A stretch of DNA of 34,135 nucleotides from assembly GCF_007990525.1 (NCBI RefSeq), contig NZ_AP019824.1, positions 1-34,135 on the forward strand. The letters run 5' to 3'. This document shows, piece by piece, positions 3,801-30,119 of this stretch. The position numbers and the translations under genes are program-made. The DNA comes from Leptotrichia hofstadii (lineage in GTDB: Bacteria; Fusobacteriota; Fusobacteriia; Fusobacteriales; Leptotrichiaceae). The notes below the pieces were generated by a model. The model saw only the letters and a program-made list of their open reading frames with translations. It was not told where the DNA came from and searched no databases. Each line of letters starts with the position of its first letter. The stretch's first letter is position 1.

Positions 3801-3873
3801 ATAATAACTCAAAATAAAAATTATAGGAAATTTCAAATTTTAATCAGTAAAAATATCGAAAGGAGATGAATGG

Positions 3874-6800
3874 ATGAAAGAAAAAAGTAAGATATTACGT
3901 AAATTAACTGCGGCGCTGCTGCTAAACGTGTTCAGCTTCAACATTCTTGCCGACGGACTTCAGGTTGATCCTAATTCAAGGTACAACACAAGCCTTGACA
4001 GGGCTCAGAATGGCGTGCCTGTCGTTAATATTTCCACTCCGAATGGCCGTGGTGTAAGTATTAACGAGTTTTTAGAGTACAACGTGGGACGTGAGGGGCA
4101 GGTTCTTAACAATGCCGACAACATCGGTAGAAGCCATCTCGCAGGAATCATCAATGCAAATCCAAATCTTGGGCCGAATCAGGCCGCAAATCTTGTCCTG
4201 CTTCAGGTAAATGGAGCAAACAGATCGCAAATTGAGGGATATATCGAGGCTCTCAGCAGACAGAAAGTGAATGTAGTTTTAAGCAACGAAAATGGAATAT
4301 ATTTAAACGGCGCAGGGACAATCAACATAAAAAACTTTATCCCTACAACTGGAAAAGTTAAGCTGAAGGACGGGGATGTAATCGGAATTGACGTCGAAAA
4401 GGGAAGGGTCATTATCGGGGCTAATGGCTTTGATGCGACTAATACAGACTATGTAAACGTCATTGCAAAGGCAATGGAGCTGCAGGGCAATCTTGTCGGA
4501 AGCAAGGTTGACGTAACTTTGGGGGAAAATACTGTTGACTCTAGCGGAACAGTAACTTCCAAAAATGGAATAAATTCAGTTGCAATTGACGCAAGCAATC
4601 TTGGATCGATGTATGCGGGGCAGATAAAGATAGTCAGCACGGACAAGGGGGCAGGAGTAAACTCCAATGGACTTATCTACTCAAGGGATACAAAATTAGA
4701 AATTACGGCTGACGGGAAAATCAATGTCGCAAAGATTAAAGGGAACGGCATTGAAATAAACGGGACTGAGTATGCCCAAAGTGAGCTTGCAAGCTCTGAC
4801 AAGGGGATTAATATTAATGCGGCTAAAATAAAGCTGGATGGGGAGACTCAGGCAAATGAGGACATTAACCTTAATGGGAATGTTGAGAACAAGTCCAACA
4901 TATACACAGGTGGAAACCTGAATACGCTTGACATGATAAATTCAGGAAATATCAACGCTTCAGGGAACATAACGGCAAAGGATTTTAAAAACTCTCTTGC
5001 GGCAGTTCTTTCAGGAGGAAGCTTTAATGTAAGGAACTTGGACAATTCTGGAAATATACAGGTTTCAGGAATTACAGACATTAACGGAAAATTTGATAAC
5101 ACAGGAGCATTGACTTCCGTTAGACGTATTTCAGTCTCAGGAAATATAGGCAGTACAGGAAATATTTTGACAAATGAGGATTTAACGGCTAAAAATACGG
5201 TAACATCAGGAGCAATTGCGGCTAAAAATTTAAGAGTGGATAACCTTACTAATGATGGGAAAATAAGCGCAAATGGCGAATTGATTGCAAAAGATGTGAA
5301 AAATACGGGGGATATTTTAGCATCAGGCAGAATTTCAGGAAGCAGCCTTGTCACTTCAGGAAAGGTTCAGACAAATGAGACTCTTGACATTGACGGTCTT
5401 CTTGACAACAGCGGGACAGTCGGGGCTTCAAAGGACATAACAGTTGCCGATAATGTATTAAATTCAGGGGAGATCCTTACTAACGGGGACTTTGCTTCAA
5501 AGAATATGGACACTTCAGGAACTGTAGTTTCAAATAATTTAAGAACTGGGAACCTTAAGAATGATGGTAAAATTGTAGCCAATAAGGACCTGACAGCTAA
5601 AAAGGTTGAAAGTGCAGGAGATATTACTGTTGTCGGTAAAATAATGGCTGACAGCCTGAAGTCATCAGGGTCATTGAGAACGAACGAGGCGCTTGATATT
5701 AACGGGGACTTTGGAAATGACGGGACAATCGAGACTCCGAAGGATGTGACGGTTGCGGGGGACATCAGCAATACTGGTAAAATAATTGCAGGCGGTAATT
5801 TAAGCGGTAGGAATGCTGTTTCAGCTGGAGTCATTGCTTCAAGGAACATAAATGTTGATGACTTAAAGAACGATGGGAAAGTTACAGCAGGAGAAAATAT
5901 CACAGCTAAAAAAGTAACTAATACTGGAGACATTGCTGCGGCCGGAACAGTTTCAAGTGACGATATGTCAACTTCAGGAACTGTAAAGGCAAACAAGACA
6001 GTTACAGTTGCAGGAAAGCTTGAGAATGACGGGACAGTGGAAACTGCTGAAGATGTGAAGGTGTCTGGAAATATCAGAAATACTGGAAGAATTGCCCTAA
6101 ATGGAGATTTGACAGGAAAGGACACAGTTACTTCAGGAACAATTGCGTCAAGGAATGTAAAAGTTGATAATTTAAGCAATGACGGTGTAATTGTGGCAAA
6201 TGAAAATCTGAATGCCAAGAATGTCAGCAACACAGGAGACATTGTGGCAGTCGGGACAGTTTCATCCGATGACCTGGTAACGTCAGGGAATGTAAGGTCC
6301 AATGGAAAAATCACAGTTTCAGGAAAGCTGGAGAACAGCGGGGCTGTTGAAACCGCTAAGAACATATCAGTTGCCGGGAATATAAGAAATGACGGCAAGA
6401 TAGCCGCAAATGAGGACTTGACAGGGAAGAATGCTGAAAACAATGGGAACATCTATGTCAAGAATCTGGAAGTCAATAACCTGAAGAATACTGGAAAAGT
6501 TGAAGGCGTGGACCTTAAGACGGATGACATTACAAACAGCGGAGACATTACGGCAATTGGCAAGATTTCAGGCGGAAACATTGACAATTCAGGAAAACTG
6601 CTTGCCAATGATACAATTGATGCCAAGAATATAAAAAATGCCACTACTTCCAGCAAAATTGCGGCTGGAAAAGGTATTACAGGAGAGAGAATTGAAAACT
6701 CTGGAACATTTGCCACAAATGGGAATATTAAGGCGGCAAGCTCGCTTGTGAACAGCGGAACGGTTGATGGAAAAGGAATTGATGTTGCAGGTTCTGAGTT

Positions 6801-9800
6801 TACAAACTCAGGAAAGATAAATGGGGAAAACATCAAGGCCAATGTATCCAGTACTAAAAATGACGGCTTCATCTATTCAGGAAATGATGTTGACCTGGCT
6901 ACGAATACGTTGACCAACACCAAGGAAATTATGGCAGTCAGCAACATAAATGCTGCAAATGCAATTGTTAGTAATAGCGGAAAGATTGCCTCAAATAACA
7001 GGGTTCTGCTTGACGGTTCAGCAATTGCAAATACCGGGGAAATCCTGTCAGGCGAAATATTTATGAGAAATGCCCGAAAATTTGATAATGCTGGGACGAT
7101 AAGGGGGAACAATGTTGAGCTTGGCGTTAACCAGGACATTAACCTTGCAGGGAATCTTCACGGGCAGCAGAGGCTTGTAATTTCAGGGAACAATATTACA
7201 AACAATGGCAACACTACTGGAACAGGACTAATTGAGATCAACTCGAATGACTTTACGAATAACAAGGAGCTTGCGTCTGATACGGTTATTGTAAATGGAC
7301 GCGGGGAAATCGTTAATAACAATATGATTACCGGAAATAACGGAAAGATTTCAGGAAGAAATATTACGAATAATGATTTAATCGCATTTGAGAACTATCT
7401 TGAGATGAACGCTCAAGGCAAGGTTCAGAACAACAAGGAAAAAGCCATCTATGGCGGGAAGGCTCTTGTTATCAAGGCAAATGAGATAATGAATGACGAG
7501 GCTGAAATACTTGGCGGAAACATGGATCTTAATGCCGCAAAGATTACGAACAATGTGGCTACAATCCAGTCGACAGGGGATATTGTGATTACTTCCAGTG
7601 ATTTTCAGAATATTGGAAGAGTTAAAGGCTTAGGGAACTATGAAAAATATTTTGAAACTTGGGACGGGCTTAAAATTACCGAGCAGGAAATTAGGAATGA
7701 ATGGGCAATTCATGACGGATATGACTGGGGACATGGAAAATACAAGGATGCAATAGATGACCAGAAAGTGGAGTTTGAGAAGTTTGTTACAAAAAACAGG
7801 AACTCAAGGTTCAAGTCGTATCTGCTTACCAAGCATGAGGACTTTTTCAGAAGCATATTAGGGAAAGACCTCGGATATGGCGATGAATTTAAGACCGGAA
7901 CGGCACAGTTTCCGGCTGAGGAGCTGAGGGAAAGGCTGAAAAGCAATGCGGACACTGAGTACGGGAAAGTTCTTGCAGGCGGGAATATTACAGTAAATTC
8001 AGGCAATTTTAAGAACAAGGACAGCATAGTTTCAGGTGGAGGCCTAGTCAATGTTAATGCAACAAATTTTGAAAATTCTGTAACCATTGACGCATCAAAT
8101 CCAATAAGATTAAGAAAAGGCTATGAATATTTGGAACTGAATGTTGAGGAAAGAGGGCATGGCTACGACATGACGGCCTTTCACGACAGGCAGATTGACA
8201 CAAGGAACTTCCTGACGGGATATGCCGCAGGACAGCCTGCCGTTATTGAAGGCGCCGCTGTAAGAATAAATGCTCCAAATATCATAAGAAGCCCGTTCGA
8301 GGACGCAAACGGAGAGGAACTGGAAAATGGCGGGGCGACTGGCAGGGAGCTGATCTCTTCAAATTCAATAGGAATTAAGAAGGGGACAGGCTCAGTTAAT
8401 GGAGCGGTGCAGGTCGCTGGAAACGCTTCGCTATCAAAATTAACCGGAAGCTTTAGCGGAAATTCGCAGGTCAATGGAAGTCCGAACCTGAACAGCCAGG
8501 TAAGCGGAACTTTTGACAACGTTGTCGAGATTGAAGGGAACAACGCAGGGATAAAGGACATCAAGAGCACAGGAGTAATCAGTGTCAATCCGATACTCGC
8601 AAGTGCAATGTTCAAGGCAAATATGAACCCAAGTTCAAAATATGTCATGGAGACCCGTTCAAGCTACATAAACCTGAGCGACTACTACGGAAGCGACTAC
8701 TTCCTTGAAAGGGTCGGATACTCGGAAGTGTGGGACAGGGCAAGACGTCTTGGGGATGCCTACTACGAGAACCAGCTCCTTACAAGGTCAATTGCCGAAA
8801 AGCTGGGAACAGCCTTCATAAATGGCAAGTCCAACAAGAAGCTGATACAGGCAATGATGGACAACGCCTCAGCTGAAGGCAAGAGGCTTGGGCTTAAGGC
8901 AGGGCAGGAACTGACTCAGGAACAGATAAACAGCCTGAACGAGGACATCATATGGTATGTGACAAAAAATGTAAACGGCATTGAAGTTCTTGCTCCGCAA
9001 GTCTATTTAAGCAAGAATACACGTTCATCAATTAGCGATGACACTAGAAACAGGGTTGGCGGAATAGACGGAACTTACGTCAAGACCAACGACTTTGTAA
9101 ACAGCGGGACAAAATGGGGTAACGGCGGAGTTACCTATGTTGAGGCGAATACTGTAAGAAATGAAACAACAACAAATCTTCTTTCAGAAATTTCAGGAGA
9201 CCAGACCTACATAAATGCAGTTGGAAATATTGAAAACATCGGCGGAAGAATAAAGGGGAATGAAGTTGTGGCACTAATTTCTGAAAACGGAAAAGTAGTA
9301 AATGACACAACAAAAAGGCGAATAGGCTACGATAACGGAAGATATGACAGCAGCTGGCACGATGAAGCCGCTTCGCTTGGAGAAATATCTTCAAATGGAA
9401 CAACTTACATAAAGGCTAACGAATACACTACAACTGGTGGAGTTCTGTCAACAAAAAATATGATCTGGGATGTCAACAGCCTGAACGCAAATGCCCTGAA
9501 ATTAAGCGGTGAAGACAGAAACGGAGTAAACAGTGATAATTATGGAAGATACAGCCAGACAACACATCTAGGAGCTGGAATAGTTGCAGATACGACAACA
9601 GGAAGAATTGGAGATATGAACTTAGTAGGCTCAACTTTTGCAGGCGGAGATACTAATGGACTTACAATCAGCGGAAATGTAAATGTTGAATCAGTAGTAA
9701 ACAGCTATGAAAATGAATCAAAGAGAACAAATAAAGGGTTTTTATCTTCAGACAGCCGTTATGTAAATGCTCACGAGGAAGAAAATGTGGCAGGAAACTT

Positions 9801-12800
9801 GCAGCTGAACGGAGCAAGAATTGAAGGAAACCTGACAGGAACTGGAAGCAACATCGTTCTTGGAGAAAACACTTTTGTAGGTGGAAAAGTTACAACGGAC
9901 TCAAGAGAATTACACAATAGCTACTACGAAAAGAATAAGAATAAAGGCTTTAACAGCGGAATAAGCCATGGAAGAGCCTCAGTCGGGTATGGGAAATCGC
10001 AGAACACGTACGATGAAAAGAGTACAGTAAATGCAAAATCCAGCCTGCAAGTTGGAGATGGCTCAGTCTTGAACAGGGGAGCAGAAATTACAGCCACAAA
10101 CTTTGAATATGGAAATATCCAGATCAATAACGGCGATGTAAAATACGATGCAAGAATTGACACAAGGGACGTGCATACTTCAAGCAAGAGCAGCGGATTT
10201 ACAATATCGGCAGGAATAAACAGCCCGATTAAGGACAGGATTAAGCAGGCTGAGCAAGCTGTAAAGCAGATTAAAAATGGCGACACGATTGGTGGCGCAA
10301 TGGAAACAATAAATGTAGCAACTGGTACAGTTAAAGACATGTCAGGGAACATCACAAGACATAACGGATCAAGAGCCACAATGAAGGACATCGAAAACGG
10401 GGATTTCAAAGTAAACAATGACTTCTATGTGAGCGGAAATATTAATGCAGGATTTAAGAAGTCGAAATCAAGCACAGATTCGCACACAGAAAGTGCCGCT
10501 GTTACAACAATGAGACCTCTGAACGAAAATTCAAGCATCACGTACAACAACGTAAACAACATAACTTATCAGGGAACACAGGCTCAAGGTGGAACATTCA
10601 TTTACAATAACGTGGCAAATATTCAAAAAGAGGCGGTTGAACTGAGAAACAGGTACAGTTCTGAAAGTTCAGGCTTTGGATTTGGAGTAAGTGCTGGAGT
10701 AGGCTCAAATGGACAAATAAAGCCAAACAGCATTAGTGGAAATATTTCCATAAACGGAGGCAATCAGAATACAGCTGAAACTGTCTATGCAAACGGAAAC
10801 TTTAAAAACGTAAATGAAGTCCACAACAACACAGGCTCAATGACATTATCTGGATTTAATCAGGAAGGCGGAAAAGTAACAGGCAATATCGGTAAACTGG
10901 TTGTAGAGAGCAGACAGAATACAAGTACAACAACAGGAAGCTCAAGTGGAATAGGGCTAGGAATAAGTGCAAACGGAGTGCCAAGTTCCGTAAATGTAAA
11001 TGGAAGCAGAACAAACGGATCAAGAGCATTTGTAGACAATCAAAGTTCATTCATTGTTGGAGAGGGAAGCAATCTTCACGTTGGAACGCTTGAAAATACT
11101 GGTGCAGTAATTGGAAAACAGAGCGATAACAGCACAACATTCAAGATTGACAGCTATGTCGGAAAAGATATTCAAAATTACGACACAATGACAACTACTG
11201 GTGGATCAATGGGAGTTTCACTTGGAGGAAAACCAAGAATAACAAGTGTCGGCTTTAATCAGGACAACAGGGACAAGGAAGGAATTACAAGAAACACAGT
11301 AGTTGGAAATGTGGAGATACAGAATGCTTCAGGAGATGAGATAAACAGGGACTTAGGAAAAGCAAATGAAATAACGAAGGATACTCACAGAAGCACGAAT
11401 ATCAATGTGGAGCCGCAAGTTATAGAATATATTTCAAATCCAACAAAGTTCAAGGAAGATCTGGAAGTAGCAATACTTGAAGGAAAAGCTACAGGAGAAA
11501 CTATATTAAAGTCCATAGAAAATGCTGTAAATGGAAGAAAGAGCAGCGACATTGGAGATCCTGAAAGAAGAACAATCAATGAAATCAAGGAAAGCGTAAT
11601 AAGGGTTAAGACAGCTCCTGAAATGAATCTAATAGCAACTGGAGATTTAAATTCAGAGAAAATATTAAAAGAGCTTGATATATCAGCAGTAGAAAAATAT
11701 GATCCTGATAATCCGAATTTGCCACCAAAAGTAAGAGCTAGAGTAGATAAACTAGCTCAAAAGGGTGAAGTACCTGGTATTTTCTATGACAAAATTACTA
11801 ATAAAATTTTCGTAGATGAAAATATAACGGATGAAGCAGTAATACGGGCAGGAATAGCAAGAGAATGGAAAATATCTGAAGACTTGAAAACTGGAAAAGG
11901 GAAAGAAAATGATGAGGGGCAGCTAAAAGCAACGGTAGCAGGAGAACTGGCCTACGATGACATGATGAAGAGGGCTAGGGAAGGCAAGACTGGGAGTATA
12001 AGTACGAGTGAACTTGATGAAGCTGTTATGGATGTTAATAGTGAGGTTACGGCTGATTTCAATAATAAGCATGTTGATAAATTTTTTAAGGGTCTTGGAG
12101 ATGCTGGTAAGAAATTTAAAAAATTAGATATTATAGGTGGCTTTAAACAATTAGGTAAAGTTGCGAATGATACGACTAGGGTTTTAAATAATGATATTAA
12201 AACCATATCAAAAGGTGGACCTGCTGCCCAAAAAACAATGAAGGAGTCAATAGGTGCTATCAAATATGCTGTTGGCAAAATAGTTCCAAAAGCAAAAAAA
12301 ACTACTGCGGTAAAAAAACCAAAATCTAACAAGCCTAAAAAAACTCAGACAACTAAAAAACCGACAAACTCTAAAACTTCTAATAATAAAAAAGTTGATG
12401 GCATAAAAGGCAAAATAGTAAAAGGAGTCGAAAATATTGGTTATTTTTCAGAAGGAGCAATGCTTGGATTGGTAGAGGAGGTATCCTTTGGAAATATCGT
12501 TTTTAGAGATAAAAATGGAGAGAAAATAGAGCCCAATAATGCATATTATCGTAATGGACGTTCGGTAGCACGTACTTTATCGGAATTAAATGGTGCAACA
12601 GGTTATTTTGCAATGGGAGCATGGTTTGCAATAGCGGAGGATGCGTCCCTTGGAGTAGCAGTTTTTAGAGACAAAGATGGTAAAAAAATAGAACCTAACA
12701 ATGTATATTATCACAGCGGGCAATTAGTAGGACATTCTTTGTCAACTATAGGTGGGGGAGCAGGAGCAGGAGGAGCAGGAGCAGTTGAAGTTGCAGGGAT

Positions 12801-13422
12801 AGCCCTTGCTCCGGAAACGGGGGGAACAACCACGTTAGCAATAATTCCTGCGGAAGCAGTAAGGACATATTCAGCAGGTGTTGCAACTAAAGGTGCTTTT
12901 GGAATTACTGAAAGTTTTATTAAACTTTCAAATCCTAAGAATTCATCTAATTCAGGCAGTAGCACGAACAATAAAAATTCAAATAATGGAAATACTAGCA
13001 GAAGCAGACCTACTTATAAACAATCAGAAAATGATTTGACTAAATCATTAAAAGAAACTTATAAAAATAATCCGGATGTTGAAATATTACCACAAGAAAG
13101 TTACTTGAAAAATGATCCAGTAAAATATGGTACTAAAGGTTCAGTTAGACCAGATAATATGAAATTAAAAAACAATATTCCTGTTGAGAGTTTTGAAATG
13201 AAAAATTATAAACTGCAGAACTATGACAATATGGCTAATACAATAGTTAAACAAGTGGAACAAAGAAGAAAGAATCTTCCGCTGACTGTTACAAAACAAA
13301 ATATTGTGATTGATGCAAGAGGTCAAGGAATTACTTATTCTCAAGAACAAAAAATAATCCAAAAAATAATTGAAAAATCTAATGGAACAATAAAAAAATC
13401 AGATATAACAATATGGAAATAG
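3874..13422 (+). CDS. Giant TpsA exoprotein with C-terminal toxin tip (CdiA/FHA-like)
   Basis: This 3182-residue secreted protein has a signal peptide at residues 1-26 (ending NILA). A TPS/haemagglutination activity domain spans about 27-280, with GVPVVNISTPNGRGVSINEF, a NANPNLG turn and NENGIYLNGAG. A long beta-helix follows, rich in N-S/T-G-x-I units, with four exact-length 103-residue super-repeats at 460-871. Adhesin-type repeats continue to about 2500, then an AGEL-containing segment near 2690, a Lys/Pro/Asn linker, and two 54-residue repeats. The last ~135 residues look like a nuclease tip: D3094 in VRPD, then E3108-M-K3110 in FEMKNY, matching a PD-(D/E)XK layout, followed by IVIDARGQGI. 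It is expected to be exported by the upstream TpsB and deliver its tip to neighbouring cells. The start follows AGGAG (3861-3865). The C-terminal ~1.4 kb is poorer in GC, as expected for swappable toxin ends. Confidence 0.9.
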   Translation: MKEKSKILRKLTAALLLNVFSFNILADGLQVDPNSRYNTSLDRAQNGVPVVNISTPNGRGVSINEFLEYNVGREGQVLNNADNIGRSHLAGIINANPNLGPNQAANLVLLQVNGANRSQIEGYIEALSRQKVNVVLSNENGIYLNGAGTINIKNFIPTTGKVKLKDGDVIGIDVEKGRVIIGANGFDATNTDYVNVIAKAMELQGNLVGSKVDVTLGENTVDSSGTVTSKNGINSVAIDASNLGSMYAGQIKIVSTDKGAGVNSNGLIYSRDTKLEITADGKINVAKIKGNGIEINGTEYAQSELASSDKGININAAKIKLDGETQANEDINLNGNVENKSNIYTGGNLNTLDMINSGNINASGNITAKDFKNSLAAVLSGGSFNVRNLDNSGNIQVSGITDINGKFDNTGALTSVRRISVSGNIGSTGNILTNEDLTAKNTVTSGAIAAKNLRVDNLTNDGKISANGELIAKDVKNTGDILASGRISGSSLVTSGKVQTNETLDIDGLLDNSGTVGASKDITVADNVLNSGEILTNGDFASKNMDTSGTVVSNNLRTGNLKNDGKIVANKDLTAKKVESAGDITVVGKIMADSLKSSGSLRTNEALDINGDFGNDGTIETPKDVTVAGDISNTGKIIAGGNLSGRNAVSAGVIASRNINVDDLKNDGKVTAGENITAKKVTNTGDIAAAGTVSSDDMSTSGTVKANKTVTVAGKLENDGTVETAEDVKVSGNIRNTGRIALNGDLTGKDTVTSGTIASRNVKVDNLSNDGVIVANENLNAKNVSNTGDIVAVGTVSSDDLVTSGNVRSNGKITVSGKLENSGAVETAKNISVAGNIRNDGKIAANEDLTGKNAENNGNIYVKNLEVNNLKNTGKVEGVDLKTDDITNSGDITAIGKISGGNIDNSGKLLANDTIDAKNIKNATTSSKIAAGKGITGERIENSGTFATNGNIKAASSLVNSGTVDGKGIDVAGSEFTNSGKINGENIKANVSSTKNDGFIYSGNDVDLATNTLTNTKEIMAVSNINAANAIVSNSGKIASNNRVLLDGSAIANTGEILSGEIFMRNARKFDNAGTIRGNNVELGVNQDINLAGNLHGQQRLVISGNNITNNGNTTGTGLIEINSNDFTNNKELASDTVIVNGRGEIVNNNMITGNNGKISGRNITNNDLIAFENYLEMNAQGKVQNNKEKAIYGGKALVIKANEIMNDEAEILGGNMDLNAAKITNNVATIQSTGDIVITSSDFQNIGRVKGLGNYEKYFETWDGLKITEQEIRNEWAIHDGYDWGHGKYKDAIDDQKVEFEKFVTKNRNSRFKSYLLTKHEDFFRSILGKDLGYGDEFKTGTAQFPAEELRERLKSNADTEYGKVLAGGNITVNSGNFKNKDSIVSGGGLVNVNATNFENSVTIDASNPIRLRKGYEYLELNVEERGHGYDMTAFHDRQIDTRNFLTGYAAGQPAVIEGAAVRINAPNIIRSPFEDANGEELENGGATGRELISSNSIGIKKGTGSVNGAVQVAGNASLSKLTGSFSGNSQVNGSPNLNSQVSGTFDNVVEIEGNNAGIKDIKSTGVISVNPILASAMFKANMNPSSKYVMETRSSYINLSDYYGSDYFLERVGYSEVWDRARRLGDAYYENQLLTRSIAEKLGTAFINGKSNKKLIQAMMDNASAEGKRLGLKAGQELTQEQINSLNEDIIWYVTKNVNGIEVLAPQVYLSKNTRSSISDDTRNRVGGIDGTYVKTNDFVNSGTKWGNGGVTYVEANTVRNETTTNLLSEISGDQTYINAVGNIENIGGRIKGNEVVALISENGKVVNDTTKRRIGYDNGRYDSSWHDEAASLGEISSNGTTYIKANEYTTTGGVLSTKNMIWDVNSLNANALKLSGEDRNGVNSDNYGRYSQTTHLGAGIVADTTTGRIGDMNLVGSTFAGGDTNGLTISGNVNVESVVNSYENESKRTNKGFLSSDSRYVNAHEEENVAGNLQLNGARIEGNLTGTGSNIVLGENTFVGGKVTTDSRELHNSYYEKNKNKGFNSGISHGRASVGYGKSQNTYDEKSTVNAKSSLQVGDGSVLNRGAEITATNFEYGNIQINNGDVKYDARIDTRDVHTSSKSSGFTISAGINSPIKDRIKQAEQAVKQIKNGDTIGGAMETINVATGTVKDMSGNITRHNGSRATMKDIENGDFKVNNDFYVSGNINAGFKKSKSSTDSHTESAAVTTMRPLNENSSITYNNVNNITYQGTQAQGGTFIYNNVANIQKEAVELRNRYSSESSGFGFGVSAGVGSNGQIKPNSISGNISINGGNQNTAETVYANGNFKNVNEVHNNTGSMTLSGFNQEGGKVTGNIGKLVVESRQNTSTTTGSSSGIGLGISANGVPSSVNVNGSRTNGSRAFVDNQSSFIVGEGSNLHVGTLENTGAVIGKQSDNSTTFKIDSYVGKDIQNYDTMTTTGGSMGVSLGGKPRITSVGFNQDNRDKEGITRNTVVGNVEIQNASGDEINRDLGKANEITKDTHRSTNINVEPQVIEYISNPTKFKEDLEVAILEGKATGETILKSIENAVNGRKSSDIGDPERRTINEIKESVIRVKTAPEMNLIATGDLNSEKILKELDISAVEKYDPDNPNLPPKVRARVDKLAQKGEVPGIFYDKITNKIFVDENITDEAVIRAGIAREWKISEDLKTGKGKENDEGQLKATVAGELAYDDMMKRAREGKTGSISTSELDEAVMDVNSEVTADFNNKHVDKFFKGLGDAGKKFKKLDIIGGFKQLGKVANDTTRVLNNDIKTISKGGPAAQKTMKESIGAIKYAVGKIVPKAKKTTAVKKPKSNKPKKTQTTKKPTNSKTSNNKKVDGIKGKIVKGVENIGYFSEGAMLGLVEEVSFGNIVFRDKNGEKIEPNNAYYRNGRSVARTLSELNGATGYFAMGAWFAIAEDASLGVAVFRDKDGKKIEPNNVYYHSGQLVGHSLSTIGGGAGAGGAGAVEVAGIALAPETGGTTTLAIIPAEAVRTYSAGVATKGAFGITESFIKLSNPKNSSNSGSSTNNKNSNNGNTSRSRPTYKQSENDLTKSLKETYKNNPDVEILPQESYLKNDPVKYGTKGSVRPDNMKLKNNIPVESFEMKNYKLQNYDNMANTIVKQVEQRRKNLPLTVTKQNIVIDARGQGITYSQEQKIIQKIIEKSNGTIKKSDITIWK
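5251..6486 (+). repeat. Four tandem 309-bp (103-residue) super-repeats inside tpsA
   Basis: Units start at 5251, 5560, 5869 and 6178. Each encodes 103 residues with no insertions or deletions, beginning NDGK/V-I and containing DLTAKKV-like, T/SG-D-I and LENDGTVET-like segments at fixed positions. A partial unit (about 37 residues) precedes 5251 and a decayed continuation follows 6487. The DNA has diverged between units while the length is strictly kept, which suggests structural constraint on a beta-helix. Confidence 0.9.
12439..12762 (+). repeat. Tandem 54-residue duplication before the toxin tip of tpsA
   Basis: Units 12439-12600 and 12601-12762 encode two 54-residue segments. Both begin GYF, contain VFRDK-G-KIEPNN-YY at the same positions, and end near an LS motif. 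They lie between the Lys-rich linker and the glycine/alanine-rich hydrophobic stretch that precedes the nuclease-like tip. This is where pre-toxin or translocation modules occur in CdiA proteins; the role here is inferred from position only. Confidence 0.85.
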
Positions 13423-13435
13423 AAAGGAAGAAGAA

Positions 13436-14113
13436 ATGGAAGAATTATCAACAAAAGAATATAATGAACTTTATAAGAAATACTTTAAAGAAATTTTTAA
13501 TAAACCAATGAAAGATTTTGGATATAGAAAGAAAGGAATAGGACGATTTTGCAAATTAAATAAAATAGGATTATTTGAATATATAGGTTTTTTTAGATAT
13601 TATCATGAATTAAGAATAGAGTATGCAATAATACCAATATATAGTTACATAATGAAAGATTCTATAGGAAATGGTGCAAAAACGGAATTTGTAGATTTGG
13701 ACGGAGAAGAAAAGATGGAAAAAGGGATGAAAAGTATTTTAGAAGAAATAAAAAACAAAATAATCCCTTGGTTTAAAAAATATGAAGATTTAGATGCTTT
13801 TTTTGAAGAAATAGTAGGAAATGATAAATTATATATAGGAGCAGAAATTTATAGATATTTATTTAGAGCGGCTACTTTTGCAAAGTTTAAAAAATATTCA
13901 AAAATACAGGAAAATATTGATAAAGTAAGAGAAGAATATAATAAATATTCAAAGAGATATGACTTTTATAACGATATATTAAAAGAAGCAGTTACATTAG
14001 AAGAAAAATTAAAAGAAGGAGAAGAAAGCGTAGAAAAATATATTGAAGAAATGGAATATAAATCACTACTGGACTGGAAAATGGAAAAATTATTAAAAAA
14101 TAAAGTTAAATAA
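13436..14113 (+). CDS. Probable immunity protein to the TpsA toxin tip
   Basis: This 225-residue protein has no signal peptide or membrane segment, so it should be cytoplasmic. It starts 13 bp after the tpsA stop with AAAGGAAG as ribosome binding site, as expected for an immunity gene of a contact-dependent inhibition locus. The N-terminal half (KPMKDFGYRKKGIGRFCK, then an IGFFRYY segment) loosely resembles DUF4304-type proteins, which often occur as cytosolic partners. The C-terminal half is a charged helical region rich in Lys and Glu (about residues 150-225). Base composition is as AT-rich as the toxin tip and unlike the body of tpsA, so the tip and this gene probably moved together. The assignment rests mainly on position; the family match is weak. 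Confidence 0.6.
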   Translation: MEELSTKEYNELYKKYFKEIFNKPMKDFGYRKKGIGRFCKLNKIGLFEYIGFFRYYHELRIEYAIIPIYSYIMKDSIGNGAKTEFVDLDGEEKMEKGMKSILEEIKNKIIPWFKKYEDLDAFFEEIVGNDKLYIGAEIYRYLFRAATFAKFKKYSKIQENIDKVREEYNKYSKRYDFYNDILKEAVTLEEKLKEGEESVEKYIEEMEYKSLLDWKMEKLLKNKVK

Positions 14114-15567: not shown

Positions 15568-15840
15568 TTAACTATTATAAATATTTTTTCTATGTCCTAC
15601 TTCTAACGCTAATACTACTAAATTTTCATCTTGGATATTTACAATAACTCTGTAATCTCCTATTCTGTATCTCCATTGTCCTTTTCTATTTGCTTTCAAC
15701 ATTTTTCCTTTACTGCGTGGATCTTCTGCAATATTTTCTAAATAAATTTTTATTCTTTTTTTTACAAATTCATCTAGTTTGCTAAAGTCTTTTACGAAAT
15801 GTGGAGTTGGGATTATTTTATATTTTACAGTTCTTCCCAT
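15568..15840 (-). CDS. RelE/ParE-superfamily toxin
   Basis: The 90-residue basic protein has the typical RelE-fold order. An N-terminal strand and helix (YKIIPTPHFVKDFSKLDE) is followed by a second helix (KKRIKIYLENIAEDPR), then the strand block KGQWRYRIGDYRVIVNIQ and a final strand with LALEVGHRKNIY. The GxYRxRxGDYR-like segment and the C-terminal His-Arg are the conserved catalytic neighbourhood of mRNA-cleaving RelE toxins, so ribosome-dependent mRNA cleavage is likely, though ParE-like gyrase action cannot be excluded. Its start overlaps the end of the antitoxin frame by 16 bp, which implies translational coupling. Confidence 0.88.
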   Translation of the reverse strand: MGRTVKYKIIPTPHFVKDFSKLDEFVKKRIKIYLENIAEDPRSKGKMLKANRKGQWRYRIGDYRVIVNIQDENLVVLALEVGHRKNIYNS

Positions 15841-17539: not shown

Positions 17540-17638
17540 ACTCAGGCGTATAGCCCAAAAATCAATTAACTCAGGTGCTAAGACCCATTTATTTTCTTTT
17601 TCTAAAATTATTTTAACACCTTTTTGAATTTTTTTCAA
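17537..17638 (-). CDS. Tiny ORF overlapping the end of the PemK-like gene
   Basis: This 33-codon frame starts at a TTG that overlaps the stop of the preceding gene (TTGA), which would allow termination-reinitiation. The product begins KKIQKGVKIILEKENKW and ends APELIDFWAIRLS, with a basic, then aromatic character. The frame runs cleanly to a stop in the terminator stem. It could be a translationally coupled small partner, or the displaced former C-terminus of the upstream protein after a frameshift. Codons alone cannot decide this. Confidence 0.35.
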   Translation of the reverse strand: MKKIQKGVKIILEKENKWVLAPELIDFWAIRLS

Positions 17639-18138
17639 TACCTATTTTTAAATAATATTTTTTCTAATCCTTGCTCCAATTTATTCATTTGTTCTGAATT
17701 TAATTTTACTCTTTCATTTCTATTTCTTCTTGGTTGCATTAACATTGCTCTACTTACTGTTGTAATTTGATTAACTAGAGCATAACTTACAATGTTCCTT
17801 CTTGATAAATTTTGTATAATTCCTAACTCGACATTAAAAATATTGGTATTATTTTTAGAAGTCAAAGGAACTACTATCGATGTTTTTCCTTGACTGTACA
17901 AAACAACACAATAATGCCTATCTCTTAAAACTCCTCCCGTTGTAAATCCAAAATCAACAGAATATACGTAACTTCTTCTAGCATTGGCCGTTGTTTCAAT
18001 CGCTGGATTTTTTAAAATTCTCAAATTATTTTTTATTAAATTTATAAAATATTTTAATAATAATTCAAAATCCCTAGCATTCAAAAATTTTTTTATTTTC
18101 CTTTTTTCTCTTTTAAATTTTCTTCCAAATTTTTCCAT
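17635..18138 (-). CDS. PemK/MazF-like toxin
   Basis: This 167-residue protein has a basic N-terminal extension (residues 1-50, Lys/Arg-rich) followed by a MazF-fold region. The region opens with YVYSVDFGFTTGGVLRDRHYCVVL, continues with the strand SIVVPLTSKN, and has YALVNQITTVSRAML where MazF-family enzymes carry their conserved Ser/Thr dyad strand. It is probably an endoribonuclease. The start is fixed by AAAAGGAG five bases upstream, with a TATAAT at 18176-18181 (minus strand). No dedicated upstream antitoxin is visible, which is unusual for MazEF. PemK-like proteins with such extensions do occur alone on mobile elements. A small ORF overlaps its end and an acidic small protein is encoded further downstream. 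Confidence 0.75.
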   Translation of the reverse strand: MEKFGRKFKREKRKIKKFLNARDFELLLKYFINLIKNNLRILKNPAIETTANARRSYVYSVDFGFTTGGVLRDRHYCVVLYSQGKTSIVVPLTSKNNTNIFNVELGIIQNLSRRNIVSYALVNQITTVSRAMLMQPRRNRNERVKLNSEQMNKLEQGLEKILFKNRY

Positions 18139-19479: not shown

Positions 19480-21336
19480 CTATCTACTTCTATGATATTG
19501 AGATTTGTTTTTATTTTGATTACGTACAGTATTTCTCTCCCTGACTGTATTTTCCAACTCAATATTCAGATTATTCTTAAAATCATCCCACCAGCCATAA
19601 GTGTTGTCTGGAACATTTTCAATTGCCACTATTACTGTTTTTTCAATTTCTAAAAGTGAAAACTTTCCATTGGCATCTTCGTGAAGCATATTTGTCATTT
19701 GCTTAATGAATTTATTGCCTGCGTCATGTTTTCGCCTAATATAAGCCCCCTTAATTTTCTCATCAGCCCTAGCTTCAGCTTCTCCAAATAACTTATCATA
19801 TTCTAGTTTGTTGTTCGCTTTAAAATTTAAAATATCCTTGTCTGTAACTTCGTAGTATCTTAAATGTTCACGAACCAGATCATCAACTTCTTTTTGTATA
19901 ATTGGCTGGGCCAGCTTTTCAAGTTCGGCTTTTCTACGTCTTTTCTTTTCTTCCAAGTCCGCATAGCTATCATTAAGCTGTCTACGTTTATTATTAATTT
20001 CTTGCAGTTCTCGTTCCATTTCAAGCCTTTTATCTAAAATATCCTGCTTTATGGCATTATTCTTGGCTTCCTCTTTTTCTACGTCCTTCTTAATATTTCT
20101 CATCAAGGTATCTCCACGTTTTCTTGCTTCATTAAGAGCTTCATTAATAAGTTCCTGCTTTCGCCTTTCTGAAACGACATAAGGTTTTTCCGCTTCTATT
20201 TTCTTTTCCCAGATTTGGTCATCAAGATTACGTATTTCATTATTTTTGCTGTTTTGTTCCTTTTCCAAAAAATTAATTGAACTTTTTAAATTACTCGCTT
20301 CAGTTTCAAGTGTTTTAATCTCAAAATAAAGGTTTTCCCTGTTCTTGATCAGTTCTTCAACTTTTTCTCCTTTTGAATAATCTTCTATTTTTTTATTGAT
20401 TGCTTCAAAATCTACATTCTTAAAGACTTTATCAAATAATTTTATTTCTTTTTTAAGATTTTTCTTGAAATTTTTGTTATTCTGTCTCTGATTTAATTTG
20501 TCCTTGATTATCTTCTTTATATTGAAAATACGCTTAAAATCCGTAATTTCCTTATTACTTTTTCTTACCTTGAAATCTGTTTCACAGTTTTTAAATTCAT
20601 TCAAGAAATCTTCCTTTGAAATTTTTTTCTTTCTGTCAATAATTTCCCTTTTTGAAAGAATTTCCATATATTTCATAAATTCATTTTTTGAATAATCATT
20701 GCTTCCAATCTTGTTTTCAAGATCCTTTTTCTCCTTTTCCATAGCGAATTTTGTCCTGTCAAGATCTTCAGAAGAATTTACTTTTTCAGTCCTTCTGACT
20801 ACAACTTCCGCACCTTCATTTGAAAACACCTTAACCTTATTTTTTAACTCATTAATGGAAGGATTTTTAACCATAAAATCATTTACAAATTCTTCATTGA
20901 AAGTCCTGTAAAAATCTTTAGTAAACGGAGAAGTCCCGCTCTCAAATTTAAATTTTTTATCTGACTTATTTTTGTTCAGCTTGGCTAACTGCCTTTCAAT
21001 GATTTTGGGCTTCTCCTGAACCTTAAATTCCTCAAACGCCTTTTTATACTCATCAGTTCCAGCAATTAACCCAAGCTCCTTATTTCTTCTCAAAAATGCA
21101 CTGGTTAAAGCCGATTTAACTTTTGCTGTGTTAACATCACTTACCGTATATTCGTCTTTCTGATTATTCTCTTCTGAAAAAGTCCACATTGACTGCATGT
21201 GCGGAGTGCTTTCATCAAAGTGAATTACTGCATACACGCAGTGGGCATTTTTGCCAAATTTTTTACTTAAAAACTCAAGATTTTCCTTGTAATACTGCTC
21301 CCACTTTTCAAGAGAAAGCATATATGTCAAATCCAC
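19480..21336 (-). CDS. MobV-like relaxase, large C-terminal part (copy A)
   Basis: This 618-residue product starts at GTG. It contains H39-F-D41-E42-S-T-P-H46, the metal-binding histidine motif of MobV/Pre relaxases, which nick the transfer origin; the last His of the usual PHxH is Gln48 here. Downstream are a Lys-rich region and long coiled coils (about 290-470). The final ~80 residues are helical and end in a basic Asn/Gln/Arg tail. The domain that should precede the motif lies in another frame, in the gene at 21327-21578, which overlaps this one by 10 bp. So the relaxase is split, or joined by frameshifting or coupled translation. In this frame the sequence stays open for another ~14 codons upstream of GTG (ending in NFEARNGVDL), up to a TGA. 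A near-identical copy lies at 28263. Confidence 0.82.
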   Translation of the reverse strand: MDLTYMLSLEKWEQYYKENLEFLSKKFGKNAHCVYAVIHFDESTPHMQSMWTFSEENNQKDEYTVSDVNTAKVKSALTSAFLRRNKELGLIAGTDEYKKAFEEFKVQEKPKIIERQLAKLNKNKSDKKFKFESGTSPFTKDFYRTFNEEFVNDFMVKNPSINELKNKVKVFSNEGAEVVVRRTEKVNSSEDLDRTKFAMEKEKKDLENKIGSNDYSKNEFMKYMEILSKREIIDRKKKISKEDFLNEFKNCETDFKVRKSNKEITDFKRIFNIKKIIKDKLNQRQNNKNFKKNLKKEIKLFDKVFKNVDFEAINKKIEDYSKGEKVEELIKNRENLYFEIKTLETEASNLKSSINFLEKEQNSKNNEIRNLDDQIWEKKIEAEKPYVVSERRKQELINEALNEARKRGDTLMRNIKKDVEKEEAKNNAIKQDILDKRLEMERELQEINNKRRQLNDSYADLEEKKRRRKAELEKLAQPIIQKEVDDLVREHLRYYEVTDKDILNFKANNKLEYDKLFGEAEARADEKIKGAYIRRKHDAGNKFIKQMTNMLHEDANGKFSLLEIEKTVIVAIENVPDNTYGWWDDFKNNLNIELENTVRERNTVRNQNKNKSQYHRSR

Positions 21337-25075: not shown

Positions 25076-25351
25076 TCTATTTTAGTAGATAAATAAGTCT
25101 TCTTATTTTCAAATATTTAATAGTAGATTGAAAAATTTAGTTTGTTATTAAAAAATTCAATTATAATTTTTTAATTCTTACTTATCTAAATATAGATAAA
25201 TATAAATCTAGTCTCCGATTTAAATATCTAGCAAACATATCTGACATTGCCGATATATTGCGCTTTATATAATATTCATCAAAAGCTATATCTCATTCGA
25301 TCAGTAAACTTGATATCTATAAGTGGATATCCTTCCTTTATAAGTTCTAAA
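25076..25351. other. Intergenic stretch, nothing recognised
   Basis: AT-rich DNA with no supported reading frame, RNA gene or repeat, lying between the conserved origin blocks and a MITE-like element. Confidence 0.4.
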
Positions 25352-25516
25352 TTTATTAGGGCGTGTCTGAAAACTCGAAATCTATGTCATTTTTAATGTT
25401 TTTTTAATTTTATAAATTATACAAATCGTGATAAAATCAGTGTTTATTATTTTTGATTTTGGAAAAATTTGTTAAAAATTCATCATTCTGATAGTTTTCA
25501 GACACGCTCTAATAAA
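25352..25516. mobile_element. MITE-like element, 165 bp with 24-bp terminal inverted repeats
   Basis: The left end (25352-25375) and right end (25493-25516) are inverted repeats with one mismatch in 24. The core is GCGTGTCTGAAAACT, extended outward by TTTATTAG. The 117-bp interior is AT-rich and has no reading frame. The size and long terminal repeats fit a non-autonomous transposon derivative. No clear target duplication is visible outside the repeats, so the exact ends are uncertain. Confidence 0.65.
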
Positions 25517-25554
25517 ATTATTTTTGACTTATGAGACCCTCTCTTTTTTTATTT

Positions 25555-25582
25555 ATAAAAAATAGGAGATTTCGCTCCTATT
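25555..25582 (-). terminator. Terminator of the Abi_2 gene
   Basis: AATAGGAG and CTCCTATT pair around a six-base loop directly beyond the stop codon, with T tracts on both strands. Confidence 0.8.
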
Positions 25583-26890
25583 TCATTTTTTATTCAATAT
25601 TTTTATTATCTCGCCTTTAAAATTATTTTCTTCTTCAAATTTATCAACTTCTTTTTCTTCATATAAAATTTCTATATAATCTTTATCTTCTTCTGTTATT
25701 TTTTTATTTTCAATGGTAACCTTTTTCATGTTCAACTTAAATACATAACCTATTAATTTCATACCATACGCTATTTTTAAAGTCAAATCCTTTTCCTGTT
25801 TTAAATAAATTTCTTCTATTTTTGATATAGTTGCTAAGCTGTCAATTTCATCTCCATGTTTGATATAAATAAATTTTTCTATTTTCTCATTTTCTTCCTT
25901 TGAATCAATTTCTTCCCATTCCAATAAATCTCCTATAATTCTCTTCCATTTTATTGGAATTCCCGTTTGGTTTAATATATCGCCAAATACTTTTGTAGAA
26001 TAATTTGATCCTAATTTTTTTATCTCATTACTTATTTCCTTCGCTAATATTTGAAACTCTTTTCTTGTAATAAATAACTTCAAAATTATTAAAACATCAA
26101 ATAATTTTGAACGAAAAGTAAAATCTATATGAGGATGTGTTATCCTATGTATTCTATTTCTGTTTATTCTTACTGTAATATTGTACAGTCTTTCATTATG
26201 GGCACATATATTTCTAATACTATTTATAAATCTCAGTATTTTTTCCATATTCTTTTCATCTACAATAATAGTTTTATCATATTCCTTTTTATATTCAATT
26301 GCTATTTCTTCACATATTTCTTTTTGCAAACTTTCTTCTATGGAAGAGTAAAAATATGATATATTACCAAAAGTTAATTGTTTTGCGAGCACCCATAATG
26401 GCAAATTTCTATGTATATCCAAATAATGAGATATTTGCCTTCCACCAGTATAATTTTGAGACATACAATTTCTTATAACATTTGATATTTCAGCAATTAC
26501 TCTTGTCGCATTTTCTTTTTTAGTTTCATCGTAATTATTGATATTTAAATAATTAAATTCCTGTGTTTTTTCCTTTGAAAAAACATAAGAAATTTTTGTT
26601 TTGATAATATTTTCAAGTTTTAAAATATTCTTTAAAATAATAGAACGAATTTCTGCATCAAATTCATACAAAAGATCAATATCCTTAAAATTTGTCCCTT
26701 CTTTATACACATCATCACCAGATGCTGTTGTAGCTGGTATATCTATAAAATAATCTTTATACCCATTTATAATATCATAATAGTTTTTCCTCTTCAAAAT
26801 TTTTATAACTTCTTCATCATTATCAATTATTAACCTACGGCTTTTAAGCTTTTCCAATTGCTCTTCATATGTATGAAATGGTCTGCTCAT
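25583..26890 (-). CDS. Abi_2 (AbiD/AbiF-like) abortive infection protein with HEPN motif
   Basis: The product has 435 residues from the ATG that follows GGAG; upstream GTG and TTG codons overlap the ribosome binding site. The N-terminus SRPFHTYEEQLEKLKSR, then YYDIINGYKDYF, FKDIDLLYEFDAEIRSIIL and HYLDIHRNLPLWVLAKQLTFG are landmarks of the Abi_2 family. R226-N-I-C-A-H231 followed by NERLYN is the Rx4H signature of HEPN ribonucleases, so RNA cleavage that halts growth on phage infection is likely. The C-terminal ~150 residues (about 285-435) are a charged extension beyond the usual ~300-residue core. A strong promoter, a short two-hairpin RNA and a terminator lie between promoter and gene, so expression depends on read-through. 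AbiF-type proteins are known to pair with adjacent non-coding RNAs and to be related to Cas13 HEPN domains. Confidence 0.88.
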   Translation of the reverse strand: MSRPFHTYEEQLEKLKSRRLIIDNDEEVIKILKRKNYYDIINGYKDYFIDIPATTASGDDVYKEGTNFKDIDLLYEFDAEIRSIILKNILKLENIIKTKISYVFSKEKTQEFNYLNINNYDETKKENATRVIAEISNVIRNCMSQNYTGGRQISHYLDIHRNLPLWVLAKQLTFGNISYFYSSIEESLQKEICEEIAIEYKKEYDKTIIVDEKNMEKILRFINSIRNICAHNERLYNITVRINRNRIHRITHPHIDFTFRSKLFDVLIILKLFITRKEFQILAKEISNEIKKLGSNYSTKVFGDILNQTGIPIKWKRIIGDLLEWEEIDSKEENEKIEKFIYIKHGDEIDSLATISKIEEIYLKQEKDLTLKIAYGMKLIGYVFKLNMKKVTIENKKITEEDKDYIEILYEEKEVDKFEEENNFKGEIIKILNKK

Positions 26891-26908
26891 CAATAACACT
26901 CCTTTTCT

Positions 26909-26982
26909 AAAAAAAAAGTCTTACTTCTTTATTAGACAAGTAAGACTTTGTGAGCTCCCCTCTAAGTTGCTCACGTTCACTT
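26909..26982 (-). ncRNA. Structured leader RNA ending in a terminator before the Abi_2 gene
   Basis: A transcript from about 26982 would be ~75 nt. Hairpin 1 is GTGAGC / GCTCAC (26969-26974 with 26950-26955) and displays the 13-base loop AACTTAGAGGGGA. Hairpin 2 is AAAGTCTTACTT / AAGTAAGACTTT (12 perfect pairs) and runs into a long T tract, so it is a terminator. The Abi_2 ribosome binding site follows within ten bases. The arrangement resembles RNA-antitoxin loci in which a terminator sets the ratio of RNA to toxin mRNA. It could alternatively be a plain attenuator. Confidence 0.7.
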
Positions 26983-26988
26983 GTTGTA

Positions 26989-27017
26989 ATAATACATTAT
27001 TTCAATAAAAATGTCAA
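26989..27017 (-). promoter_or_regulatory. Strong promoter of the leader RNA / Abi_2 unit
   Basis: On the minus strand TTGACA (27012-27017), 17 bases, TATTAT (26989-26994). A MITE-like insertion ends nine bases upstream of the -35. Confidence 0.8.
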
Positions 27018-27025
27018 GGACTTTT

Positions 27026-27235
27026 TAAATTAGTTGCAATTCATCTTTTGTAAAAATTTAACTATTATCCTATGGATTTTAAGTTATTTATCATATTTTA
27101 TACTTAAAAACTATAAATTAATCAATATATACATAAGAAAATTTAATAGAAAATTTACAATAAAAAATAAAATTATGTCTAAATTACAATGTAATTTCAA
27201 ATATTTTTGTAAAAGATGAATTGCAGTAAATTAGT
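27026..27235. mobile_element. MITE-like element with 9-bp target duplication
   Basis: TAAATTAGT at 27026-27034 and 27227-27235 flanks an element of about 190 bp. The element's ends are perfect inverted repeats of at least 15 bp: TGCAATTCATCTTTT at 27035-27049 and its complement at 27211-27225. They extend imperfectly inward (TAAAAAT / ATATTTTT). The interior is A/T-rich, and the frame that crosses it has no ribosome binding site. The right-hand duplication contains the stop codon of the HTH gene. Confidence 0.75.
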
Positions 27236-28262: not shown

Positions 28263-30119
28263 TTAAATATTATAATCTTCTGCCATATTGAGAATTAGTT
28301 CTATTGCGTGTAATATTCCTATCTTTAAATTATTTTCCAGCTCAATATTTAGATTATTCTTAAAATCATCCCACCAGCCATAAGTGTTGTTTGGAACATT
28401 TTCAATTGCCGCTATTACTGTTTTTTCAATCTCTAAAAGTGAAAGTTTCACATTGGTATCTTCGTGAAGCATATTTGTTATTTGCTTAATGAATTTATTG
28501 CCTGCATCGTGTTTTCGCCTGATATAAGCTCCCTTAATTTTCTCATAAGCCCTAGCTTCAGCTTCTCCAAATAACTTATCGTATTCAAATTTATTGTTTG
28601 CTTTAAAATTTAAAATATCCTTGTCTGTAACTTCGTAGTATCTCAAATGTTCACGAACCAGATTATCAACTTCTTTTTGTATAATTGGCTGGGCCAGCTT
28701 TTCAAGTTCGGCTTTTCTACGTCTTTTCTTTTCTTCCAAATCTACATAAATGTCATTAAGCCGCCTACGTTTATTATTAATTTCTTGCAGTTCTCGTTCC
28801 ATTTGAAGTCCTTTATCTAAAATATCCTGCTTTATGGCATTATTCTTGGCTTCCTCCTTTTCTACGTCCTTCTTAATATTTCTCATCAAGGTATCTCCAC
28901 GTTTTCTCGCTTCGTTAAGAGCTTCATTAATGAGTTCCTGTTTCCGCCTTTCTGAAACGACGTAAGGTTTTTCCGCTTCCATTTTCTTTTCCCAGATTTG
29001 TTCATCAAGATTACGTATTTCATTATTTTTGCTGTTTTGTTCCTTTTCCAAAAAATTAATTGAACTTTTTAGATTACTCGCTTTAGTTTCAAGTGTTTTA
29101 ATCTCAAAATAAAGGTTATCCCTGTTCTTGATCAGCTCTTCAACTTTTTCTCCTTTTGAATAATCTTCTATTTTTTTATTGATTGCTTCAAAATCTACAT
29201 TCTTAAAGACTTCATCAAATAATTTTATTTCTTTTTTAAGATTTTTCTTGAAATTTTTGTTATTCTGTCTTTGATTTAATTTGTCCTTGATTATCTTCTT
29301 TATATTGAAAATACGCTTAAAATCCGTAATTTCCTTATTACTTTTTCTTACCTTGAAATCTGTTTCATAGTTTTTAAATTCATTCAAGAAATCTTCCTTT
29401 GAAATTTTTTTCTTTTTATCAATAATTTCCCTTTTTGAAAGAATTTCTGTATATTTCATAAACTCATTTTTTGAATAATCATTGCTGCCAATCTTACTTT
29501 CAAGCTCCTTTTTCTCCTTTTCCATAGCGAATTTTGTCCTGTCAAGATCTTCAGAAGAATTTACTTTTTCAGTCCTTCTGACTACAACTTCCGCACCTTC
29601 ATTTGAAAACACCTTAACCTTATTTTTTAACTCATTAATAGAAGGATTTTTAACCATAAAATCATTTACAAATTCTTCATTGAAAGTCCTGTAAAAATCT
29701 TTGGTAAACGGAGAAGTCCCACTCTCAAATTTAAACTTTTTATCTGACTTATTTTTGTTCAGCTTGGCTAACTGCCTTTCAATAATTTGGGGCTTCTCCT
29801 GAATCTTAAATTCCTCAAACGCCTTTTTATACTCATCAGTTCCAGCAATTAGCCCAAGCTCCTTATTTCTTCGCAAGAATGCACTGGTTAAAGCTGATTT
29901 AACTTTTGCTGTGTTAACATCACTTACCGTATATTCGTCTTTCTGATTATTCTCTTCTGAAAAAGTCCACATCGACTGCAGATGAGGCGTGCTTTCATCA
30001 AAGTGAATTACTGCATATACACATCGTGCATTTTTACCAAATTTTTTACTTAAAAACTCAAGATTTTCCTTGTAATACTGCTCCCACTTTTCAAGAGAAA
30101 GCATGTATGTCAAATCCAC
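28263..30119 (-). CDS. MobV-like relaxase, large C-terminal part (copy B)
   Basis: This 618-residue product also starts at GTG and is nearly identical to copy A over most of its length, including the HFDESTPH motif at residues 39-46 with Gln48 after it. Differences are scattered and mostly conservative, which suggests both copies have stayed functional since duplication. The last ~25 residues differ: after ELEN the frame reads NLKIGILHAIELIL. A one-base shift would instead give KDRNITRNRTNSQYGRRL and a stop, resembling the basic tail of copy A. So this copy has a frameshift near its end. The N-terminal domain is again encoded separately, overlapping by 10 bp. Confidence 0.82.
   Translation of the reverse strand: MDLTYMLSLEKWEQYYKENLEFLSKKFGKNARCVYAVIHFDESTPHLQSMWTFSEENNQKDEYTVSDVNTAKVKSALTSAFLRRNKELGLIAGTDEYKKAFEEFKIQEKPQIIERQLAKLNKNKSDKKFKFESGTSPFTKDFYRTFNEEFVNDFMVKNPSINELKNKVKVFSNEGAEVVVRRTEKVNSSEDLDRTKFAMEKEKKELESKIGSNDYSKNEFMKYTEILSKREIIDKKKKISKEDFLNEFKNYETDFKVRKSNKEITDFKRIFNIKKIIKDKLNQRQNNKNFKKNLKKEIKLFDEVFKNVDFEAINKKIEDYSKGEKVEELIKNRDNLYFEIKTLETKASNLKSSINFLEKEQNSKNNEIRNLDEQIWEKKMEAEKPYVVSERRKQELINEALNEARKRGDTLMRNIKKDVEKEEAKNNAIKQDILDKGLQMERELQEINNKRRRLNDIYVDLEEKKRRRKAELEKLAQPIIQKEVDNLVREHLRYYEVTDKDILNFKANNKFEYDKLFGEAEARAYEKIKGAYIRRKHDAGNKFIKQITNMLHEDTNVKLSLLEIEKTVIAAIENVPNNTYGWWDDFKNNLNIELENNLKIGILHAIELILNMAEDYNI

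Follow-up and report, generated by a model that had tools for sequence, protein, structure and literature searches.

What does a short structured RNA do when it is encoded between a strong promoter and the ribosome-binding site of a gene for an AbiF-like HEPN protein? We addressed this question for a locus of Leptotrichia hofstadii lying within a 34,135-nt stretch of DNA (contig NZ_AP019824.1, positions 1 to 34,135), hereafter the window. The locus is very likely an AbiF-type, type III-like toxin–antitoxin system on a Leptotrichia plasmid, and by analogy with characterized AbiF systems its two-hairpin RNA very probably holds the AbiF toxin in check.

Organization of the abiF locus and its replicon

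The unit comprises the following features:

26989..27017 (-): sigma-70 promoter from a consensus scan, with -35 TTGACA at 27017-27012, a 17-nt spacer and -10 TATTAT at 26994-26989
26909..26984 (-): predicted short RNA of about 71-76 nt, consisting of a 5' single-stranded ACAAGUGAAC, two hairpins and a U-run (covariance model, fold)
26950..26974 (-): hairpin 1, GUGAGC / GCUCAC with the 13-nt loop AACUUAGAGGGGA, read as AA-CU(UAGA)GG-GGA (covariation)
26909..26949 (-): hairpin 2, the intrinsic terminator, with a 12-bp stem, loop GUCUAAUAAAG and U-run (sequence, covariation)
26899..26903 (-): ribosome-binding site AGGAG, 8 nt before the ATG (sequence)
25583..26890 (-): abiF-like gene encoding an Abi_2 HEPN protein of 435 aa (Pfam, PADLOC, PDB, fold)
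26198..26215 (-): HEPN catalytic motif R226-N-I-C-A-H231 (alignment)
25586..25927 (-): C-terminal extension, residues 322-435 (~115 residues), modelled with low confidence
25560..25583 (no strand assigned): terminator-like hairpin at the end of the abiF gene, with a 9-bp stem, T-rich on both strands by inspection

The TTGACA-17-TATTAT promoter (27017-26989, minus strand), first pointed out in a sequence-only reading of the locus, matches the consensus at 11 of 12 positions and has the top score within 2.2 kb; its -35 and -10 region is kept in relatives, and the predicted RNA begins 5-7 nt after the -10. The terminator stem, with arms AAAGTCTTACTT (11 nt) AAGTAAGACTTT at 26949-26915 and a T-run to 26909, ends about 11 nt from the AGGAG. 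With this terminator placed between promoter and ribosome-binding site, full-length mRNA would need read-through, as the same reading had argued and as the comparison with relatives supports. The gene almost certainly starts at the ATG at 26890, giving 435 aa, because the GTG listed as its start, at 26899, overlaps the AGGAG.

By DNA comparison the host replicon is a Leptotrichia plasmid, mostly 90-95% identical over parts of the plasmids of L. wadei, L. trevisanii, L. hongkongensis and L. shahii. It looks like a fusion of related plasmids, with three Rep3-type genes (14466, 23644 and 32315), two ParA-type genes and a pair of near-identical Mob_Pre-like ORFs of 618 aa (19480-21336 and 28263-30119). 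The AbiF unit itself is flanked by two short inverted-repeat elements, at 25348-25520 and 27028-27232 (28 nt at 93% and 30 nt at 83%), which are perhaps MITE-like remnants marking a mobile cassette. The plasmid further carries ParE-like and PemK/MazF-like toxin genes (15568-15840 and 17635-18138) and, at 1992-14113, a two-partner secretion locus resembling a contact-dependent inhibition set, with a TpsB-like transporter, a 3182-aa TPS-domain protein and a small ORF after it.

Family and predicted fold of the window protein

The protein belongs to the Abi_2 family (PF07751; E 3.2e-40, 138.8 bits against a curated cut-off of 25.6) and matches the PADLOC AbiD model (E 4.9e-53, 178.6 bits); its sole sequence relative in the PDB is PbAbiF (8vz6, E 7.8e-8). 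It contains a single Abi_2/HEPN domain with the HEPN RNase motif RphixxxH, the R, N and H of which are invariant in 18 and in 29 aligned homologues. Over residues 1-320 the AlphaFold2 model mostly scores pLDDT 85-97, dipping around 241-260. Structural comparison placed the PbAbiF dimer with its ncRNA (8VZ6) first, with Z 23.6 and rmsd 2.5 over 284 residues (within residues 1-324), and Foldseek matched the model to 8vz6_A at E 4.5e-9. The next matches were Cas13d (Z 9.7) and Cas13b (Z 8.3). The kinship with Cas13 HEPN domains claimed earlier is thus upheld, but it rests equally on the published AbiF–Cas13 link, because Z values of 8-10 among helical proteins can reflect a common arrangement. 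Single-protein scans of genome contigs and viral contigs yielded no homologues of the window protein, whereas alignment-based scans found homologues in both.

One could also take the locus for a decaying AbiF locus whose leader has survived by chance, given that the hairpin loops of the window RNA are degenerate and that one relative (L007) is a decayed pseudogene retaining its RNA. The 435-aa frame, the HEPN motif, the promoter and the ribosome-binding site are nevertheless all intact, and another species-level genome (G014) encodes an identical protein on one of its contigs and also holds the same RNA as the window; such a non-functional remnant is the least probable of the explanations weighed here, to the point of being barely credible.

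A C-terminal extension and degenerate hairpin loops

The window protein is 435 aa long against a family median of ~317 aa. The difference is a C-terminal extension, put at ~150 residues in the sequence-only reading and corrected here to ~115 (residues 322-435). This segment has pLDDT values under 50, and neither Pfam nor NCBIfam offers a useful family match for it (DarA_N, E 0.005, is below cut-off). Searched alone against 98 Fusobacteriota genomes, it gave no convincing relative besides L004. Counterparts occur only in L004, which is identical and belongs to another species-level genome, and in L005, which is 55% identical overall with a diverged tail and whose extension is visible in the full-length alignment only.

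Both extension-bearing homologues (window/L004 and L005) have departed from the tetraloop found in most relatives, with UAGA or GAAUA in hairpin 1 and AAUAA or AAAA in hairpin 2. The C(UNCG/UNAG)G apical loop is absent from the window hairpins, where hairpin 1 has UAGA and hairpin 2 is degenerate, and L005 is degenerate too. That extension and tetraloop loss go together is a lead rather than a result, drawn from two independent sequences. The joint reading, that in this Leptotrichia subclade the extension replaced the lost tetraloops in recognition and that AbiF autoregulates through the terminator, is on balance unlikely.

Structure and conservation of the two-hairpin RNA

The sequence-only reading had described a ~75-nt RNA with a 13-nt loop hairpin and a 12-bp terminator stem before the Abi_2 ribosome-binding site, partnering an AbiF-like HEPN protein. 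Both parts of this description stand. The RNA folds at -23.7 kcal/mol (z -3.9), and only 1 of 200 shuffled sequences folds as well. Comparison of the regions upstream of Abi_2 homologues from Leptotrichiaceae, other Fusobacteriales, phages, plasmids, viral contigs and genome contigs revealed the same two hairpins in the close homologues L005, L006, L007, L067, L147 and L149, preceded by an unpaired AAGNGRA-like 5' tail that is less clear in L147 and L149. In most of these relatives each hairpin has a UNCG/UNAG tetraloop with a closing C-G on an inner stem of 2 bp, which is joined to the outer stem by 2-3 nt on the 5' side and 1-3 nt on the 3' side. A plain-sequence search for the RNA in plasmids found no homologues.

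The covariation check proposed for both hairpins bore the structure out, with compensatory changes in 12-13 of 17 pairs. In the 17-pair structure, 13 pairs were changed on both sides, a number equalled by none of 500 shuffles and reaching at most 6 in slid controls; in an alignment of nine RNAs made with the model, and leaning towards it, 12 of the 17 pairs covary (0/500 shuffles) and pairing holds in 97.9% of cells. The outer and inner stems of hairpin 1 (helices 1 and 2) and hairpin 2 (helix 3) all covary. A covariance model, R1, was constructed from five homologous RNAs, with the window and L005 left out; it recovered the window RNA with a score of 41.1 bits (E 1.3e-8 when the window was searched), had it as the sole match across the host genome (E 1e-6) and found the L005 RNA at E 1.5e-4. 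The window RNA is therefore more than chance, since a model built without the window matches exactly its place.

As both hairpins carry the C(UNCG/UNAG)G loop in most relatives, hairpin 2 of the window repeats, by sequence comparison, the hairpin motif in degenerate form, so that the motif serves also as terminator; lacking the conserved tetraloop, the window copy may therefore act as terminator alone. Antiterminator pairing between the 5' tail and the rest of the RNA was considered and rejected, being near-significant in the window and L067 only and not conserved. Leader-peptide attenuation was likewise discarded: the loop lengths of relatives differ by non-multiples of three, and a ribosome-binding site in the RNA was not seen.

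On the protein tree the RNA classes cluster, with 2 changes needed against a shuffled mean of 5.8 (0/500; 56 rows, a quick method, with some open forks). The clade carrying the window RNA class has members in Fusobacteriota, Melainabacteria and Bacillota. L008, L033 and L023 share the 5' tail, and in each a plain terminator comes after a hairpin 1 with CC(UGAG)GG; L008 and L033 were included in the 56-row tree, where both fall in the window RNA clade.

These data bear on a simpler account, in which the leader is a mere attenuator or riboswitch-like terminator that limits abiF in cis without any binding of AbiF by the RNA. In favour of this account, hairpin 2 makes a good terminator immediately before the ribosome-binding site, and expression is likewise held down in cis by the Clostridioides difficile leader, rising 17-fold when the leader is deleted (PMC12373285). 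Hairpin 1, however, is not a terminator and is yet kept by compensatory change in helices 1 and 2; the C(UNCG/UNAG)G loop present in both hairpins of most relatives is not needed for termination; RNA class tracks protein clade; and the C. difficile RNA is active in trans and binds its protein (PMC12373285). We regard a purely cis-acting leader as improbable and favour the antitoxin reading, against which it counts that the pairing of hairpin 2 would largely also be kept by a plain terminator.

R1 also recovered two RNAs that have no intact partner gene behind them. One, in a relative (L234:1501-1575; G020:C1:158410-158484), has its own TTGACA-TATAAT promoter and the identical loop AATTCTACGAGAGGC in both hairpins; its neighbours are rhuM on one side and hsdS of a type I restriction system on the other, and behind it there appears, by eye, a C-terminal abi remnant of ~50 codons. 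The other (L023:962-1033, on plasmid G012:C2) is a second, solitary copy that directly follows the abi gene of L005 and has none immediately downstream of itself. These orphan RNAs could be leftovers or antitoxins retained after toxin loss, and for the L023 copy a decoy or a retained antitoxin is possible.

RNA-terminator leaders across Abi_2 genes

Homologues with the same protein but no conserved upstream hairpins, which would have spoken against the proposed pairing, were looked for. A terminator-like hairpin lies within 130 nt of the start in 128 of 145 non-redundant Abi_2 loci, compared with 18% of dinucleotide shuffles and with 5 of 41 other genes from three records used as a gene control, leaving the interpretation standing. 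By eye, most of the 17 loci without a called hairpin still have one whose U-run is poor or whose stem is interrupted. Promoters scoring at least 9/12 are likewise present at 128/145 loci (46% of shuffles). An RNA-terminator leader is thus a general trait of Abi_2 genes, given its presence at 128/145 loci.

The C(UNCG/UNAG)G loop falls within the terminator hairpin at 40 of the 145 loci and in 0 of 435 shuffles; in many single-hairpin Abi_2 loci too, such as L158 (GATCATACTCCGGTGACCTACGGGCCCGGGGTTTTTT), the motif-bearing hairpin is the terminator. Such a single-hairpin AbiF leader (GATCATACTYYGGTKWCCTACGGGYCCRRGGT), in which the hairpin doubles as terminator, is widespread and was seen upstream of abi in L158, L156, L161, L163, L164, L170, L176 and L179, and Rfam had no match to it in the three leaders searched (L156, L158 and L161). 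A DNA pattern search for tetraloop-terminators added only L242, a chance match in a terminase-like gene, which was discarded.

The host genome (G000) holds two further Abi_2 genes, at G000:C1:1445595-1446536 and 972322-973038 (L002 and L003), each with its own promoter, an RNA of a different class and a terminator. Insulated toxin-RNA pairs within one cell could be used to test specificity.

Relation to known AbiF systems and to Cas13

Rfam's abiF RNA family, RF03085, gave nothing in the window region up to E 10, no match in the relatives searched and none above cut-off (37 bits) across 33 genomes of the family. Since the positive control, the C. difficile phiC2 RNA, was matched at 37.6 and 19.5 bits, RF03085 is ruled out as the identity of the window RNA, and this mismatch with the AbiF RNA family in Rfam counts against the antitoxin reading. 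Weak, sub-threshold Rfam matches to SpF36, mir-14, the bglG leader and CRISPR-DR40 were dismissed as chance.

AbiF with an upstream RNA antitoxin has already been described as a type III-like toxin–antitoxin system, as set out in PMC12373285 and in PMC12737573, which reviews Zilberzwige-Tal et al. 2025; to call the locus a candidate for a new system would accordingly be too strong. AbiF-Cd of C. difficile is toxic, and its RNA binds it directly and neutralizes it in cis and in trans; the leader lowers expression in cis, RNA deletion causing 17-fold derepression, and the order is promoter, RNA, terminator, abiF (PMC12373285). The window protein resembles AbiF-Cd of phi027 and phage phiC2 in its Abi_2 HEPN domain, with 25% identity over 240 aa and the RNxCAH motif, and, judged from sequence, the window locus has the same layout as the AbiF-Cd/RCd22 locus, one transcription unit running from promoter to two-hairpin RNA, terminator and ribosome-binding site. 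RCd22, in contrast, has the RF03085 motifs and a separate terminator (seen in the phiC2 sequence, L227), whereas the window RNA differs in its loops and uses its second hairpin as the terminator; AbiF-Cd, at 287 aa, lacks the C-terminal extension. Compared at the protein level, PbAbiF (with its RNA AbiFr, 8VZ6) shares the fold over residues 1-324 and the HEPN motif, but sequence identity is 20-23% and the window protein has ~115 extra C-terminal residues.

In ToxIN-like type III toxin–antitoxins, too, the toxin gene is preceded by its RNA antitoxin, and a terminator separates the two; ToxI-type repeats, however, are pseudoknots processed by the toxin, and the ToxIN toxin fold is unrelated to AbiF.

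The likeness to Cas13 (type VI CRISPR) in the HEPN domain invites the idea of RNA-guided defence, in which the RNA loop or 5' tail would pair with phage RNA and AbiF would act as a Cas13-like guided nuclease. The window protein, though, has a single HEPN domain where Cas13 has two, and its RNA, short and mostly paired, has no guide region or spacer-like stretch; the unpaired 5' tail and the loops are largely conserved among relatives, and the window and G014 carry the same RNA. Neither CRISPR array nor spacer was seen in the region upstream of abiF as read. With the RNAs of PbAbiF and AbiF-Cd being antitoxins according to PMC12737573 and PMC12373285, guided targeting is highly improbable, and the antitoxin reading is retained.

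On these comparisons the window RNA represents a second AbiF RNA class, structurally supported and tied to one protein clade spanning three phyla. Judged against Rfam 15, what appears new is the RNA variant; the kind of system is known already.

Proposed mechanism and implications

Under the antitoxin reading, one constitutive promoter would yield mainly a ~75-nt RNA ending at the second hairpin, with a minority of read-through transcripts serving as AbiF mRNA, so that terminator efficiency would set the ratio of antitoxin RNA to toxin. The HEPN protein would be a dimeric RNase toxin, bound and silenced by the short RNA, most likely through one hairpin motif per protomer; toxicity, RNA binding, neutralization and dimerization are here inferred from AbiF-Cd and PbAbiF. 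More speculatively, for both the trigger and a role in phage defence, phage or stress might halt synthesis of the RNA, destroy it or favour read-through, freeing the toxin; the ensuing growth arrest would limit the phage or punish plasmid loss.

In a less likely elaboration, antitoxin motif and terminator are one hairpin and AbiF on the nascent RNA, or its absence, would alter termination directly: the toxin would sense the level of its own antitoxin and set its own read-through, and any phage function acting on termination would free it. The one AbiF RNA family met in Rfam misses the window locus, and the second class builds its terminator from the presumed antitoxin motif. AbiF systems are regarded as ancestors of Cas13; the window locus and its relatives would offer a defined, testable set for following a possible path from RNA antitoxin to guide RNA and the self-dosing of a toxin.
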